Shown here piece after piece: positions 35,975 to 40,905 of a stretch of DNA of 41,624 nucleotides. The position numbers were made by a program, and so were the translations under genes. Source of the stretch: Lachnospiraceae bacterium (GTDB lineage Bacteria > Bacillota > Clostridia > Lachnospirales > Lachnospiraceae); assembly GCA_024405155.1 (NCBI GenBank), contig JAKSPC010000018.1:1-41624 (forward strand), given 5' to 3'. How positions within the stretch are numbered: the stretch's first letter is position 1; every line of letters starts with the position of its first letter. The notes beneath the pieces were generated by a model that saw nothing but the letters and a program-made list of their open reading frames with translations, did no database searches and was not told the DNA's origin.

Positions 35975-36146
35975 TGTAAGCCGGGAGCAGAGTTTTCGGC
36001 CGAAACGGCTTACAAAATCACAGAAAATCAGTCCCGGTGTAAGCCGGGAGCGAAGTTTTCGGCCGAAACAGCTTACAAAATCACAGAAATTTTGGCTTTG
36101 TGTAAGCCGGATGCCATAGTTTGCATGGTATCCGGCTTACTTTTTT
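35975..36146 (+). repeat. Three 63-nt-spaced hairpin repeats after gyrA
   Basis: Units begin with TGTAAGCCG at 35975, 36038 and 36101, an exact 63-nt period. Units 1 and 2 share about 55 nt (TGTAAGCCGGGAGC, TTTTCGGCCGAAAC, GCTTACAAAATCACAG) and fold through TGTAAGCCG/CGGCTTACA (one mismatch in unit 2). Unit 3 keeps the outer stem but has a different inner part and a T-tract. Confidence 0.8.
36102..36146 (+). terminator. Strong intrinsic terminator of gyrB-gyrA
   Basis: GTAAGCCGGATgCCAT and ATGGtATCCGGCTTAC form a stem of about 15 bp with a short loop, followed by TTTTTT (36141-36146). It is the third unit of the 63-nt repeat series. Confidence 0.9.
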
Positions 36147-36370
36147 GCGGGAAGATCAGGAAAAAGACAGCCGTATGGAGACTTTTCGGCGCTGCCGGCT
36201 TACATGTGTACTGGTCTGTACTGGTCAACCAAAATTGTAATGGCGATGTGTGCAGCGTGCACACCAATAACTGCGGAAAAAATGATACATTGAGCCTGCG
36301 AAACAAAAAAGCGGGAAGGATCGTCCTGTACGGACGAAACCGGGTCCCCCGAAAAAAAGCGGAGGTAATT
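36147..36370 (+). promoter_or_regulatory. Regulatory region of the LRR-kinase cluster
   Basis: No gene is visible. It contains the dyad GTGTGCA-GCG-TGCACAC (36248-36264), an extended -10 (TGATACATT, 36283-36291) with no good -35, and a small inverted repeat TCGTCC/GGACGA (36321-36337) in the probable leader. The dyad sits where a -35 or activator site would be. Confidence 0.45.
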
Positions 36371-38116
36371 ATGAAAAGAAGAATTGCAGGCATGCTGGCA
36401 TTTCTGATGCTTCTTGTGTCTGCCGTTCCCTCTTTTGCGGCGGGAACGACGACATATTCAGAGTGCTGGAAGACTACAGCGGCAGGAACATGGTACGTGG
36501 CGGATGCAAAAGGAAACCAGGTAAAGAACACATGGCTCTGTGACGACGCCGTACCGGCAAATGGTAAAGAAGTATGGTATGTCCTTGGTCCGGACGGAAC
36601 TATGGTCACCGGAGGCCTGATCCGGGATAAGACAGGCAACTATTACAGTCTGGAAACGGCTAACAACGGCTATTACGGAATGATGCGCAATCAAAGCGGC
36701 GTCTATGACGGCATTGCGCTTACCATCCAGACAGCACATCTGGGAAACTTCGGTGCCATTCTGAATGCGGACGGGATAGAAGCGCTGAAGGCAAAATATG
36801 GCGTAACACAGGTTGACATCGACAACAGCAATATCGTATATTCAAGTAAGATCGTACCGCAGAAGATCGTGTATTCCGCTTCCGATGAAAGCTCTGAAGA
36901 AAAGCACGATGATGGCGATGACAAAACAGAGCATACTCTTTCTACGCCTTTTACCGACGGAACAAGAAAACTTGGTCAGGCCACACTGACGGTGGCAGAC
37001 GGGGGAAAGACCATCACCTACAAAAACAGCTCGAATACTCCCCAGAAACTTACCATTACAACAAAAGCAGATGAGACGCTGATTATTGATGCGCCTCTGG
37101 ATGACATTTTCCACGAAGGAGAAGCAACGGAAGTAAAAGTTCTTGCAGCGGCGGATAATTCCTATGTATGCAGCGCGGATGTAGAAAGCCTCTCCGTGGA
37201 AAGCGGCCATGTGGTATTAAATGGCGCTGTGGATGAAATGACCGTGGAGTCTACCGGTGCCGTTTCCATCGACGTGAGAGTGGATGCTTCCGTCGGCGGG
37301 ACCGTGGAGGTCTCCAAAAAGAATGAAAATGAGGAAGTGATCGCATTCCATGTTGAAGGCGTGATGGAAACCATCGAATCCTCCACAGGAGATCTTTCCC
37401 TTACCGTGGGCATCGATGCCGTTTCTCCGAAACTTACGTTCGTGGGAGAGGAGACGGTCAAAGCCTATAAGAAGCGGTGCGAAGAGCGCCTGGGGAAAGA
37501 GAAGATCATTGCCAGCATCAAGTGCGGTGAAGAAGTGATCACCCACGAAACGCTGGGAGAAGATACCAGGAACTTCATGTGTATGGGACAGACCTTTGAG
37601 AACGACGTGTATGTAAACGGCGACTTCACCAGGATCATTTTTGCCGGATGTACCTTCAAGGGCGACATCATCAACCGCGGCAGCGAGATGTGCATGGCGA
37701 TGTTTATGGAATGCGAATTTGCCACGCCGTCGGAATGCCGGTTCGAAAACAACGGAAGAGAGCTTTTAAGCATCAATGATCTGATCTCCAAGTTCGTCTG
37801 GGTGGGATCGGTCAATGAGGATGTGGACGTGATCTGCGACGACGATGCCAACGGCGCCGTCATTGCTATTTCTACGCTGTCTCCCGTACTGTTTAACGGA
37901 AATGAGTACAGTTTCGAAAACATGGAATACTACTGTGACGAAAGCGCCGGCGGTTCCGGAGAACTGGAAGAATACAAAGGACAGCCGGTAAATCTCTTAT
38001 ATACAGGAAAAATGAACCTGGTGGACGGGACCCATCCGCTGATCATTCTGGGTGAATATGATAAAGACAGCGGTCCGGCCATTTATCCGCCGGAAAATCC
38101 GCCGCAGGAAGAATAG
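36371..38116 (+). CDS. Secreted protein with wall-binding-like N-terminus and a C-terminal domain shared with the downstream lipoprotein
   Basis: A 581-aa protein. The start at 36371 is chosen for its SD GGAGG and the signal peptide that follows (residues 1-23, ending SFAAG). Residues 25-110 contain aromatic/Gly repeats (GTWYVADAKGNQV, EVWYVLGPDGTMVTGG, YYGMMRNQSG) resembling cell-wall/choline-binding repeats. The middle (about 190-400) is a beta-rich stretch of Val/Glu/Ser strands. The C-terminal part (about 405-575: FAGCTFKGDIIN, MECEF, DVICDDDANG, VLFNGNEYSFE) is clearly paralogous to the lipoprotein at 40192-40905. No named family recognised. First gene of a four-gene cluster. Confidence 0.75.
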   Translation: MKRRIAGMLAFLMLLVSAVPSFAAGTTTYSECWKTTAAGTWYVADAKGNQVKNTWLCDDAVPANGKEVWYVLGPDGTMVTGGLIRDKTGNYYSLETANNGYYGMMRNQSGVYDGIALTIQTAHLGNFGAILNADGIEALKAKYGVTQVDIDNSNIVYSSKIVPQKIVYSASDESSEEKHDDGDDKTEHTLSTPFTDGTRKLGQATLTVADGGKTITYKNSSNTPQKLTITTKADETLIIDAPLDDIFHEGEATEVKVLAAADNSYVCSADVESLSVESGHVVLNGAVDEMTVESTGAVSIDVRVDASVGGTVEVSKKNENEEVIAFHVEGVMETIESSTGDLSLTVGIDAVSPKLTFVGEETVKAYKKRCEERLGKEKIIASIKCGEEVITHETLGEDTRNFMCMGQTFENDVYVNGDFTRIIFAGCTFKGDIINRGSEMCMAMFMECEFATPSECRFENNGRELLSINDLISKFVWVGSVNEDVDVICDDDANGAVIAISTLSPVLFNGNEYSFENMEYYCDESAGGSGELEEYKGQPVNLLYTGKMNLVDGTHPLIILGEYDKDSGPAIYPPENPPQEE

Positions 38117-38120
38117 GATC

Positions 38121-38582
38121 ATGAGCCAGAAAAAGACACCGCATACCAGTACCCTGTTAAGACGACTGTTCAAGGCCAGCAACCTGGACCGTTTTCTTGC
38201 GGAAAATAAAGAAGGCTTTGATGTTCCAAAGTTTCACGAAGTGATCTCCGCAATGTGCAGGGAACGAAACGAGACCGCTGAGGCCGTTATCGGCCGCAGC
38301 GGCATTGAGCGCACCTACGGACATCAGCTTTTTAACGGGACCAGAAAGCCATCCCGCGACAAAGTGATCCAGCTGGCCATCGGTTTCGGGATGAATACGG
38401 AGGAAACAGCGGAGCTTCTGAAGGCTGCCGGAAAATCCCCCCTGTACCCCAGGGTGGAGCGGGACTGTATCCTTTTGTTCGGGATCAATAAGGGATACGG
38501 GATCATGGAGATCCAGGAGCTTCTGCATGAAAAGGGGGCGACGATCCTCGGCGGATCGCCGAAGTATGAAGACCTCATCTGA
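38121..38582 (+). CDS. XRE-like helix-turn-helix protein
   Basis: A 153-aa soluble protein. The start ATG at 38121 lies 4 nt after the previous stop. Residues about 40-105 (AEAVIGRSGIERTYGHQLFN, then GTRKPSRDKVIQLAIGFGMN and AAELLKAAGKSPLYP-like text) have the helix pattern of an XRE/Cro-type DNA-binding domain, including the recognition-helix-like RTYGHQLFNGTRKPSRD. The C-terminal helices (residues 115-145) may dimerise. The following kinase gene overlaps its 3' end. It may be a regulator whose activity is set by the kinase; this is inferred from gene order only. Confidence 0.75.
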   Translation: MSQKKTPHTSTLLRRLFKASNLDRFLAENKEGFDVPKFHEVISAMCRERNETAEAVIGRSGIERTYGHQLFNGTRKPSRDKVIQLAIGFGMNTEETAELLKAAGKSPLYPRVERDCILLFGINKGYGIMEIQELLHEKGATILGGSPKYEDLI

Positions 38583-40146
38583 AACAGGAAATGCGATCCG
38601 GAATGACGAAACACTCAAGTATTATGAAATGCTTGAGTGTTTTTCATGCCGGAAGACCAGGGAATGCTATCTGATGAGGGAAAAGGAGACGGACCGCCTG
38701 GTGGTGGCAAAGGTCTTTTATCCGGAGGACGAACTGTTCCTGCTGCGCCAGCCCGATGAGATCCGGAAGATTTCATTTCCCGGGGTCCCTGCCTTTATCG
38801 AAGAGATCAGAGACGAAAAAAGGCGGATCGAAATCAGGGAGTTTATTCCCGGGAAGACTCTGGAAAGAGCTGCGGCCGAAAAGGAACTTACAGCGAAAGA
38901 GATCCTCGACATTTCCTTAAAGCTATGTGATATCCTGGAAAAACTGCATGACCGGCCTGCTCCCGTCATTCATCGGGACGTTAAGCCGCAGAACGTGGTC
39001 ATCAACGAAGAGGGTGAAGTGTTCCTCATTGATTTCGATATAGCCAGGATCGCAAAGGAAGAGGACAGAGGGGAGGAACCGTCAACGGATACGGTGGTCT
39101 TCGGCACCCAGATGTTTGCGGCACCGGAGCAGTACGGGTTTTCCCGGACGGATGCCCGTTCCGATATCTATTCGCTGGGGGTGCTGATCCGGTGGCTTTT
39201 AGATCGCGTCACCAATGAGGCGCAGAAGGAAACAAAGGAATACCGGCTCCTTTCCGCTGTGGCAAAGAAATGTTCCGAGCTGGATCCCGGGCGAAGGTAT
39301 CAGTGCATTTCCCGGGTGAAGGATGCGCTTCTTGAGAACAGAAAGAAAAGGATCACGAAGGTACTGGCAGCGCTTGCGGTGCTTTTTGTGATCATTGCGG
39401 CAGCAGGGCTCCTTTTGGGGAAAAAGACAGAGGCGGTCACTTTCGAAGAACCGGTCCTGGAGGAAGCCATACGGCTGCAGCTTGGAAAGACGAACGGCGA
39501 GGAGATCCGGGAAGAGGATCTTCTGAAAGTGGAAAACATTTTCGCAGCCTGTGACAGGGCATTTCTTACAGAAGAAGAATACTACGAGGCGGTCAGTGTG
39601 CTGGATGCCGCCGGGGAAAACGAAAAAGGGAAACTTTCAAAACTTGGCGATATAGCAAAGTGCAGAAATGTAAAAAAGCTTTGCTTAGCTTATGAAGCGG
39701 TCACTGATATTTCCGTTCTTTCGGGGAATACAAAGCTGGAAAAACTGGAACTGAAAAAAGACAACGTGAATAGCATCGATGTGGTGAGAGATCTTCCGGA
39801 GCTTCGTTCGGTGGGACTGTGCGGAGATCCGGTCACGGACATAAGCCCTCTGAGGGAGCTGGAACATCTTTTGTATCTGGATCTTTGCGGGGTGGACGGA
39901 TATGAGCCTTCTGTACTGAATTCTTTTCCGCATTTGGAATACCTGGACATCAACAACAGGACGTTAAGCTGCCGGTACCTTGAGGGAAACAGCATCAGAA
40001 GGCTCCGCCTGGGATATATCAATACGAATGATTTCGGTTTTCTTTTGGGGATCCGGGACCTGGAGACCGTGGAGGCAAATTTCCAGAACGCGGGCGCCAT
40101 CCGGAAGCTGGGAGAGACCACGTTTTCTGTGGAATACAAATACTGA
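38527..40146 (+). CDS. Transmembrane Ser/Thr protein kinase with C-terminal leucine-rich repeats
   Basis: A 539-aa protein. The start at 38527 overlaps the HTH gene by 56 nt and is supported by AGGAG 7 nt upstream; the ATG at 38566 is an alternative. Kinase domain (about 28-270): Lys62 in VAKVF, HRDVKPQNVVI with Asp151, DFD at 169-171 in place of DFG, APE at 199-201, then SDIYSLGVL. The Gly-rich loop is poor. A basic stretch and one membrane helix (about 278-298) follow. The C-terminal part (about 390-520) has 21-22-residue leucine-rich repeats (VTDISVLSGNTKLEKLEL, VTDISPLRELEHLLYLDL), as in internalins. With the kinase inside, the repeats lie outside. Receptor-like kinases with LRR ectodomains are rare in bacteria; PASTA repeats are usual. 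Confidence 0.85.
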   Translation: MKRGRRSSADRRSMKTSSETGNAIRNDETLKYYEMLECFSCRKTRECYLMREKETDRLVVAKVFYPEDELFLLRQPDEIRKISFPGVPAFIEEIRDEKRRIEIREFIPGKTLERAAAEKELTAKEILDISLKLCDILEKLHDRPAPVIHRDVKPQNVVINEEGEVFLIDFDIARIAKEEDRGEEPSTDTVVFGTQMFAAPEQYGFSRTDARSDIYSLGVLIRWLLDRVTNEAQKETKEYRLLSAVAKKCSELDPGRRYQCISRVKDALLENRKKRITKVLAALAVLFVIIAAAGLLLGKKTEAVTFEEPVLEEAIRLQLGKTNGEEIREEDLLKVENIFAACDRAFLTEEEYYEAVSVLDAAGENEKGKLSKLGDIAKCRNVKKLCLAYEAVTDISVLSGNTKLEKLELKKDNVNSIDVVRDLPELRSVGLCGDPVTDISPLRELEHLLYLDLCGVDGYEPSVLNSFPHLEYLDINNRTLSCRYLEGNSIRRLRLGYINTNDFGFLLGIRDLETVEANFQNAGAIRKLGETTFSVEYKY

Positions 40147-40191
40147 TCTCTGCCGCAGACAGTGGCGTAAACTATGAGGAGGAAAAAGAAA

Positions 40192-40905
40192 ATGATGAAG
40201 AAGCAGGTTTGGATCGCAGTTCTGGTTTGCCTTACCGTTCTGGCGACGGCAGGATGCGCTAAAAAAACGGAGGGGACAGAACCGACTGTGGAAACGGTGG
40301 TACAGAAAGAAGCGGCAGCTCTGGTCACGGAAGCGGCAAAGGAAGAGGAACCGTCGGAGGAGCCGCCGGAAGACGGGCGTATGATCGCCACAGAGTATAC
40401 ACTGTTTATCGGCGAGAATCAGGAAGACTGTCAGAGCAATTATATCTACAACGAGCCGGTCATCGTCACCGGAGACAACGGGCAGATGGCATTTGACAAC
40501 TGCATTTTCAATGCCGATGTGATCAACGCGGCCGAAACCGGTACCCGGGTGATCATTCTGGAAAACTGCGAGTTCAGAAACGGGGCGAAGTGTGTGTTCA
40601 AAAACAGTGTGAAAGAAGCGACTGTGGATACCGACCTTCCCAAGTTCTTCGGATATATGCCCATAGAGGTCGTTTGCGAGGACTGCGCCGGCATTTCTCT
40701 TGCCATGGGGACCTGGAATATCGTATTTAATGGGGAAATATATAAACTGGAAGATTCGGACGTGTTTATTGACAATGCTCACCCGGAGACCGGTCCCGTT
40801 CCCTATACCGGCCAGGAGGCAAATATCCATGCCGTGTGTCAGTGGTTTGAAAAAGGAAGGAAAATCATCTATCTGGATGCCGAGCATGTGGACTTCGGCG
40901 GATGA
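40192..40905 (+). CDS. Lipoprotein sharing a domain with the secreted protein of the cluster
   Basis: A 237-aa protein. The start at 40192 is chosen because AGGAGG lies 9 nt upstream. A signal peptide with lipobox LATAGC gives lipidated Cys22. An acidic linker (about 25-68, EEEPSEEPPEDG) precedes a globular part (about 70-230: FDNCIFNADVIN, ILENCEFRNGAKCVFKNS, VVCEDCAGISLAMG, IVFNGEIYKLED). These blocks match the C-terminal part of the 36371-38116 protein in the same order. The repeated x-x-C-x-F motifs suggest beta-helix rungs. It starts 45 nt after the kinase gene. Function unknown; a ligand or co-receptor for the LRR kinase is conceivable. Confidence 0.75.
   Translation: MMKKQVWIAVLVCLTVLATAGCAKKTEGTEPTVETVVQKEAAALVTEAAKEEEPSEEPPEDGRMIATEYTLFIGENQEDCQSNYIYNEPVIVTGDNGQMAFDNCIFNADVINAAETGTRVIILENCEFRNGAKCVFKNSVKEATVDTDLPKFFGYMPIEVVCEDCAGISLAMGTWNIVFNGEIYKLEDSDVFIDNAHPETGPVPYTGQEANIHAVCQWFEKGRKIIYLDAEHVDFGG

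Follow-up and report, generated by a model that had tools for sequence, protein, structure and literature searches.

What does a bacterial receptor-like Ser/Thr kinase control? The question is raised by a 41,624-nt stretch of DNA from a Lachnospiraceae bacterium (GenBank assembly GCA_024405155.1, contig JAKSPC010000018.1; the whole stretch is referred to here as the window), in which four same-strand genes between gyrA and tRNA-Ser(GCT) encode a secreted protein (SEC), a helix-turn-helix (HTH) protein, a transmembrane kinase with leucine-rich repeats (LRR) and a lipoprotein (LIP). Bacterial eukaryotic-like Ser/Thr kinases (eSTKs) are described in the excerpted text of PMC4601284 as few per genome, with pleiotropic targets. 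We propose, with a probability of about 0.7, that the genes form a receptor-kinase switch in which the LRR kinase would act through the HTH protein, as an activator, on a palindrome-containing promoter of the operon. This operator and promoter (36248–36291) are absent from the initial annotation, which was made from the sequence only. Loci (L) and genomes (G) are numbered as in our data set.

The kinase and its HTH partner

The kinase matches Pfam Pkinase (E 3.5e-22), and its C-terminal part matches LRR_4 (E 8e-7) as well as internalin A chains in PDB (E 7e-21). Pkinase was matched in 37/37 aligned kinases, in which H136, R137, D138, N143 and D156 are invariant and K49 nearly so, and the window protein, having both the match and the catalytic residues, is a Hanks-type Ser/Thr kinase. 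LRR_4 was matched at E 0.001 in 31 of the 37. Because the single transmembrane segment (TM, about residues 266–284) has five Arg/Lys in the eight preceding residues and two just after it, and there is no N-terminal signal, the LRR part is predicted, from charges only, to lie outside the membrane, in agreement with the transmembrane kinase with an LRR ectodomain claimed in the initial annotation. Like the PASTA kinases of Gram-positive bacteria (PknB/Stk1) it has a cytoplasmic kinase domain, one TM and extracellular repeats, but it has LRRs in place of PASTA, which was absent from the Pfam scan of the kinase (P0003) up to E 1, and a PASTA-type kinase was rejected. It further differs in that a single partner gene is seen for it and the sites in each genome are few, in contrast to the pleiotropic targets of eSTKs (PMC4601284, excerpts). 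Mean identity over 666 pairs was 0.47 for the kinase domain versus 0.34 for the ectodomain. A tree of the 37 kinases has a branch (support 88/85) that sets the 12 from Chloroflexota apart; the window kinase, itself on a long branch, sits among those of Bacillota.

The HTH protein matches HTH_31 below the curated cut-off (E 9e-4; 19.9 bits versus 27 bits). No further domain was matched in Pfam, and a search of PDB with its profile returned nothing significant (best E 0.1). Thr9 is kept in 39/39 LRR-class HTH proteins and in 93% of the 29 others aligned.

What recurs is an HTH gene together with a gene for a membrane Ser/Thr kinase whose ectodomain is in most cases of the LRR type. With the HTH protein as query, 42 sister loci (Clostridia and Chloroflexota) were obtained from genome contigs, and in 41 of these the kinase gene lies directly downstream of the HTH gene. 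The exception, L066 (6415–10607), has an exported gene between the two, two tandem HTH frames and operators at three places. The initial annotation had proposed an envelope-signalling gene set and a neighbourhood search for HTH-kinase-LRR pairs in Lachnospiraceae; the pair of LRR kinase and HTH output does recur, but the set of four genes was not found again. Among 99 genomes near the window (own included), 26 have an HTH relative, and a kinase was nearby in 21 of the 30 HTH loci examined there, on the opposite strand in 17 of the 21. Relatives of the HTH protein are present in 7 of 24 other genomes of the genus, none above 33% identity. No close relative of the HTH protein of G860 was found in 25 genomes, the matches being those of G651 and G772 (53%) and G1263 (31%).

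In hipBA, too, an HTH gene lies upstream of a kinase gene. The order and overlap of the window genes resemble hipBA, and PADLOC kinase models match the kinase domain, as would be expected of a HipBA-like toxin-antitoxin or defence pair. These PADLOC matches (best 25 of 35) are, however, confined to the catalytic domain of a Hanks-type kinase with a TM and an LRR ectodomain, no HipA family was matched in Pfam or NCBIfam scans, and the linked genes mostly encode exported proteins. A HipBA-like toxin pair was therefore rejected, as far too improbable to retain.

A palindrome accompanies the gene pair

The regions upstream of HTH genes were searched blindly for spaced 4+4 words; among AT-rich words, TGCA-N4-GCAT was recovered in 12 of 63, versus 0.5 in shuffles. 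TGCA-N3-TGCA clusters immediately 3′ of the kinase gene, at 1.8–2.3 kb from the HTH start, with 52 places in 64 loci (2 in the window) versus 15, 18 and 17 in shuffles that omitted the window. The 23-bp consensus built from 31 seed sites, wAnGTGTGCAGnCTGCACACnTw, has a site of at least 12 bits in 36 of the 42 loci and of at least 18 bits in 34, whereas shuffling these 514 kb twice produced 3 and 0 sites. The site lies at most 300 nt 3′ of the kinase stop codon in 29 of the 38 loci with that stretch covered.

The window has one site of at least 12 bits on either strand, which scores 29.0 bits. Its palindrome is the only perfect match in the 2.03-Mb genome of the organism, and at two mismatches there are three further places, equal to the 3 of a reversed-pattern control. 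A strict-pattern count made by hand in 39 sister genomes found 39 distinct places in 28 genomes, and 30 of these places are at HTH-kinase loci, judged by contig and position. In the 99 genomes near the window there were 5 strict-pattern matches (1 in the reversed control), namely that of the window, one in G041 beside an HTH-kinase pair, and one each in G028, G031 and G035, where no such pair was found within the 5 kb examined. The HTH protein probably binds this palindrome.

Promoter geometry

At 38 sites of at least 18 bits we looked for TATAAT-like hexamers (4 of 6 or better). A hexamer starts exactly 18 nt past the 23-bp site in 34 (27 of them at 5 of 6), compared with a mean of 3.6 at other offsets and 9 at offset 18 on the opposite side. 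In these 34 the distance from the centre of the site to the start of the −10 hexamer is thus 30 nt. This fits a class II activator-dependent promoter, in which the activator site is centred near −41.5 and overlaps a poor −35, and the operator is predicted to be centred near −42.

The main rival places the HTH protein as a repressor over the −35 region, from which it would be released once the LRR kinase phosphorylates it. A protein bound near −42 can also stand in the way of polymerase, and in Rv2175c of Mycobacterium tuberculosis a phospho-mimetic Thr9 abolishes DNA binding according to the excerpted text of PMC4601284, whose table gives ‘Unaffected’. However, by eye no −35 hexamer was seen in the window promoter or at the site in the aligned promoters, TG precedes the −10 hexamer in 21 of 38 sites, as is typical of promoters needing help, and 34 of 38 sites keep the spacing to the very base. 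We consider repression unlikely and activation the better fit. Weaker sites (12.9–17.1 bits) ahead of the HTH genes in L041, L046, L052 and L057 have a spacing of 20 nt and a TTGnnn −35 (by eye), and may be autoregulatory.

Changes in the recognition helix and the palindrome

A profile search yielded 10 strong-class loci besides the window, of which three were L036, L038 and L039 again and seven were new and had not been used for the motif. Five of the seven (L188, L190, L191, L194 and L196) have a site with a hexamer at 18 nt, though L190 has a broken kinase frame, with the site 2.8 kb past the HTH start. In L192 and L193 (helix ERSFGHQ[LI]FKG, Lys at 72) the kinase gene is followed by GTGGGCT-N3-AGCCCAC, which is a perfect palindrome in L193 and has one mismatch, read by eye, in L192; TAAAAT and TATAAT, respectively, again lie 18 nt from the site, and L193 carries a second GTGGGCT-type site. 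The helix RTYGLQIFR of L194 (Leu68, Arg72) pairs with GTGTGCC-N3-GGCACAC, and RTLGHQLFN of L002 (Leu66) with GTGCGCA-N3-TGCGCAC. Altered palindromes in the four loci with larger recognition-helix changes point to some protein-DNA co-variation.

These loci also bear on a further alternative, that the palindrome works in the kinase mRNA, as an RNA element or terminator, and is not an operator. Such an element would account for the position after the kinase stop codon noted above. Moreover, 17 of 36 sites have flanks that can lengthen the stem when a shift of up to 3 is allowed (5 of 36 without bulges), versus a mean of 5.4 and a maximum of 10 with re-paired flanks; several have T-runs, and termination of the kinase mRNA may be a second role of some 3′ sites. 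Against this stand the core sequence, kept across two phyla beyond what its pairing demands, the −10 at a fixed distance, the changes in the core in loci with changed helices, and the copy in the window, which precedes the operon and comes after a separate hairpin on the gyrA side. Hence a terminator only was rejected, and an RNA element in place of an operator appears very improbable. In L047, L064 and L035 the operator is extended by 11–12 paired bases and a T-run, and here a terminator of the upstream mRNA and an activator site of the next gene may share the same bases.

Loci with weak-class HTH proteins mostly lack the site (9 of 10 had none of at least 14 bits). A general search of 37 weak-class loci for perfect 7-3-7 palindromes followed at 18 nt by a −10 gave 7 hits versus 2, 1 and 1 in shuffles, with one locus counted twice and three hits in L198; this is no more than suggestive of a promoter geometry general to the HTH family. 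Those hits in L003/L204 (G070) and L005/L174 (G041), with the half-sites TTAAGCT and GTATGCA, respectively, lie just after the kinase gene. L206 has a site of 24 bits, 2382 nt upstream of the HTH gene, and here too a −10 lies at 18 nt.

Genes behind the operator

There were 45 site-gene rows, and 29 were kept after sites of <18 bits, gaps of >400 nt, proteins of <150 aa and repeats were dropped. By a crude export predictor, 19 of the 29 operator-linked genes encode exported proteins versus 48 of 256 other open reading frames (ORFs; Fisher p 4e-7, window included). Pfam matches in eight targets were SLH, Sortilin/BNR, WD40-like with a periplasmic binding protein, NHL repeats, M23 peptidase, GH10, an Ig-like domain and, in L033, none. 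Seven of the ten non-exported targets (L031–L034, L042, L045 and L072) look like one family by clustering and a common start. This family of about 675 aa, found behind the operator in rumen Clostridia, is represented by L033 (9280–11304), with L034, L042, L045, L049 and L072 assigned by clustering and L031 and L032 by eye; its C-terminal part resembles RyR-type domains (by eye only). The linked GH10 enzyme, binding protein, M23 peptidase and surface proteins suggest control of displayed or secreted products.

As the operator precedes SEC and most of the linked genes look exported, SEC and LIP are best read as regulated outputs. SEC has a signal peptide, a weak cell-wall-binding-like repeat (Pfam E 0.027, below cut-off) and, at its C-terminus, a domain that the initial annotation had recognized as common to the lipoprotein. 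The two copies indeed align (SEC, P0001, 386–542; LIP, P0004, 68–218) with 29% identity and E 4e-13, and LIP as query against the whole genome returned SEC at E 2.3e-12. The domain is rare: its profile had 0 matches in 396 other genomes of the family (own genome the sole carrier among 397) and one relative, in G017, among 24 other genomes of the genus, leaving two copies in the window and one in a genome of the same genus. In G017 (L173, 7728–8463) an operator of 18.2 bits, with TATATA at 18 nt, lies ahead of two frames, one like the SEC N-terminus and one like the shared domain of LIP. No HTH relative was found in that genome, which is 78% complete, and there is no HTH-kinase pair beside the site.

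SEC and LIP might instead be ligands of the LRR ectodomain, with the HTH output acting elsewhere in the genome. All three extracellular parts are encoded together, and the LRR receptor could be bound by the two paralogous domains encoded next to it. However, this very operon is the one headed by the genome's only perfect operator, so the output looks local, and by BLAST no SEC or LIP relatives were among the sister-locus ORFs in the matches listed, the window's own aside. We regard this alternative as doubtful, rather more so than repression; SEC and LIP may, however, be sensed as feedback alongside the proposed switch.

The proposed switch

In the switch that we favour, the LRR ectodomain would sense something outside the cell and the cytoplasmic kinase would then phosphorylate the HTH protein, the best candidate residue being Thr9 in its N-terminal arm. 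A dimer of the HTH protein would bind the palindrome and bring RNA polymerase to a promoter with an extended −10 and no −35. SEC, the HTH protein, the kinase and LIP would be made together from this single promoter, and the switch would thus raise its own sensor and regulator along with the two exported proteins, a positive feedback in the window. The comparisons supply a conserved gene pair, an operator, a fixed −10 distance, some co-variation and a single perfect site in the genome; phosphorylation and its direction, activation over repression, the signal and the roles of SEC and LIP are what we infer. A precedent for Thr9 as phospho-acceptor is Rv2175c, which is phosphorylated on Thr9 in its disordered N-terminal arm (PMC4601284, excerpts).

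Several observations weigh against this proposal. The 42 loci were in effect fetched via the peptide TYGHQLFN, which builds in the invariance of helix residues 65–72, and helix changes at 65, 66 or 70 alone (L188, L190, L191, L196) leave the palindrome unchanged while L002 has no −10 at 18 nt, so the co-variation comes from few loci. Six of the 42 loci are without a site of at least 12 bits (L040, L048, L056, L065, L050, L068), of which L040 has two weak sites (10.9 and 11.0 bits) and L050 and L068 are cut short. The window site is upstream of the operon, as in a minority of loci (L035, L046, L055, L057, L066). Nine of the 39 strict-pattern places in sister genomes are away from HTH-kinase loci, compared with 1 in the reversed control and near a uniform-base estimate of about 7, and at the 8 of these 9 that were examined, all but G491:C160, there was no HTH or kinase relative. 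The loci behind the export count are related and only 29 of 45 rows enter it. Finally, the ectodomain of L192 (G526) is not LRR-like by eye, with the layout of HTH gene and operator kept, and the sensor part of the kinase may be exchangeable.

On balance, we also lean towards a wider interpretation, in which this would be a widespread, undescribed Ser/Thr-kinase counterpart of the two-component system, comprising a receptor kinase with an LRR or another ectodomain, an HTH activator dedicated to it and a single operator-promoter whose geometry is fixed. The controlled exported gene would be freely swapped between lineages, and helix and operator would co-evolve. Kinase, DNA-binding partner and promoter stay together across Clostridia and Chloroflexota, in two distant phyla, and the predicted operator makes the pathway directly testable and marks the likely controlled genes of each kinase. 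No title or abstract start describing the HTH-kinase pair or the palindrome was found in a literature search whose terms were possibly too narrow and which left most subscription journals and all of bioRxiv uncovered.

Comparison with known systems

Two-component systems have a receptor, a dedicated DNA-binding partner and an operator of their own, and the proposed window system would work likewise, but no histidine kinase or receiver domain was matched in Pfam or NCBIfam scans of the four proteins. Activation of the lambda cI type also proceeds from a site at −42, and the window has a putative XRE-like HTH protein and a palindrome predicted near that position; unlike cI, this protein has a kinase partner and no further Pfam domain. 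Plant LRR receptor-like kinases likewise combine an LRR ectodomain, a TM and a Ser/Thr kinase, though in the reverse order, the kinase domain of the window protein being N-terminal, and a common origin is not claimed. In M. tuberculosis, Ser/Thr kinases control DNA-binding proteins in the pairs PknH-EmbR, where EmbR is activated by PknH, and PknL-Rv2175c; these have other DNA-binding folds, and the excerpts of PMC4601284 mention neither LRRs nor a single co-conserved operator for them.

Locus layout and genomic setting

The features are listed in Table 1. The initial annotation described four tightly packed genes, and the ORFs are present and packed as one operon, with gaps of 4, −17 and 27 nt, so a single transcript is likely.

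Table 1. Positions of the features of the SEC-HTH-kinase-LIP locus in the window
Feature	Position	Strand	Basis or remark
Hairpin and T-run on the gyrA side, intrinsic-terminator-like, ahead of the operon	36102..36140	+	16-pair stem, then TTTTTT
Putative operator, perfect palindrome GTGTGCA-GCG-TGCACAC	36248..36264	.	23-bp site 36245-36267; heads the operon
Predicted extended −10, TG-A-TACATT	36283..36291	+	hexamer 36286-36291, 18 nt after the 23-bp site; sequence and conserved spacing
SEC, secreted protein, 581 aa, first gene after the operator	36371..38116	+	ORF and signal peptide
Shared domain in SEC	37508..38074	+	
HTH (XRE-like) protein, 153 aa, proposed activator	38121..38582	+	ORF and HTH match
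Thr9 codon, N-terminal arm, candidate phospho-acceptor	38145..38147	+	conservation
Recognition-helix residues RTYGHQLFN (64-72)	38310..38336	+	helix assigned by eye from the HTH match
Receptor kinase, 526 aa; cytoplasmic Ser/Thr kinase, one TM, predicted LRR ectodomain	38566..40146	+	overlaps the HTH gene by 17 nt
LIP, lipoprotein with shared domain, 243 aa	40174..40905	+	27 nt after the kinase gene
Shared domain in LIP	40375-40899	+	

The window runs from dnaA-, dnaN- and recF-like genes (Pfam) through gyrB and gyrA, both named from the sequence alone, to tRNA-Ser(GCT) and the start of 16S rRNA. The region 3′ of gyrA was examined in 15 genomes of the same genus, to the contig end or for about 9 kb. 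No relative of the HTH protein, the kinase or LIP was found there in any of the 15, and tRNA-Ser(GCT) is present in 13; the four-gene cluster is thus most simply an addition in this lineage. In one of these regions (L167) there is a relative of the N-terminal part of SEC. Terminator-like sites such as the hairpin on the gyrA side are near chance over the whole window (9 versus 6.1). Just after gyrA (35975–36204) a hairpin-bearing 63-nt sequence is directly repeated, in two copies that are 84% alike and a third that is partial.

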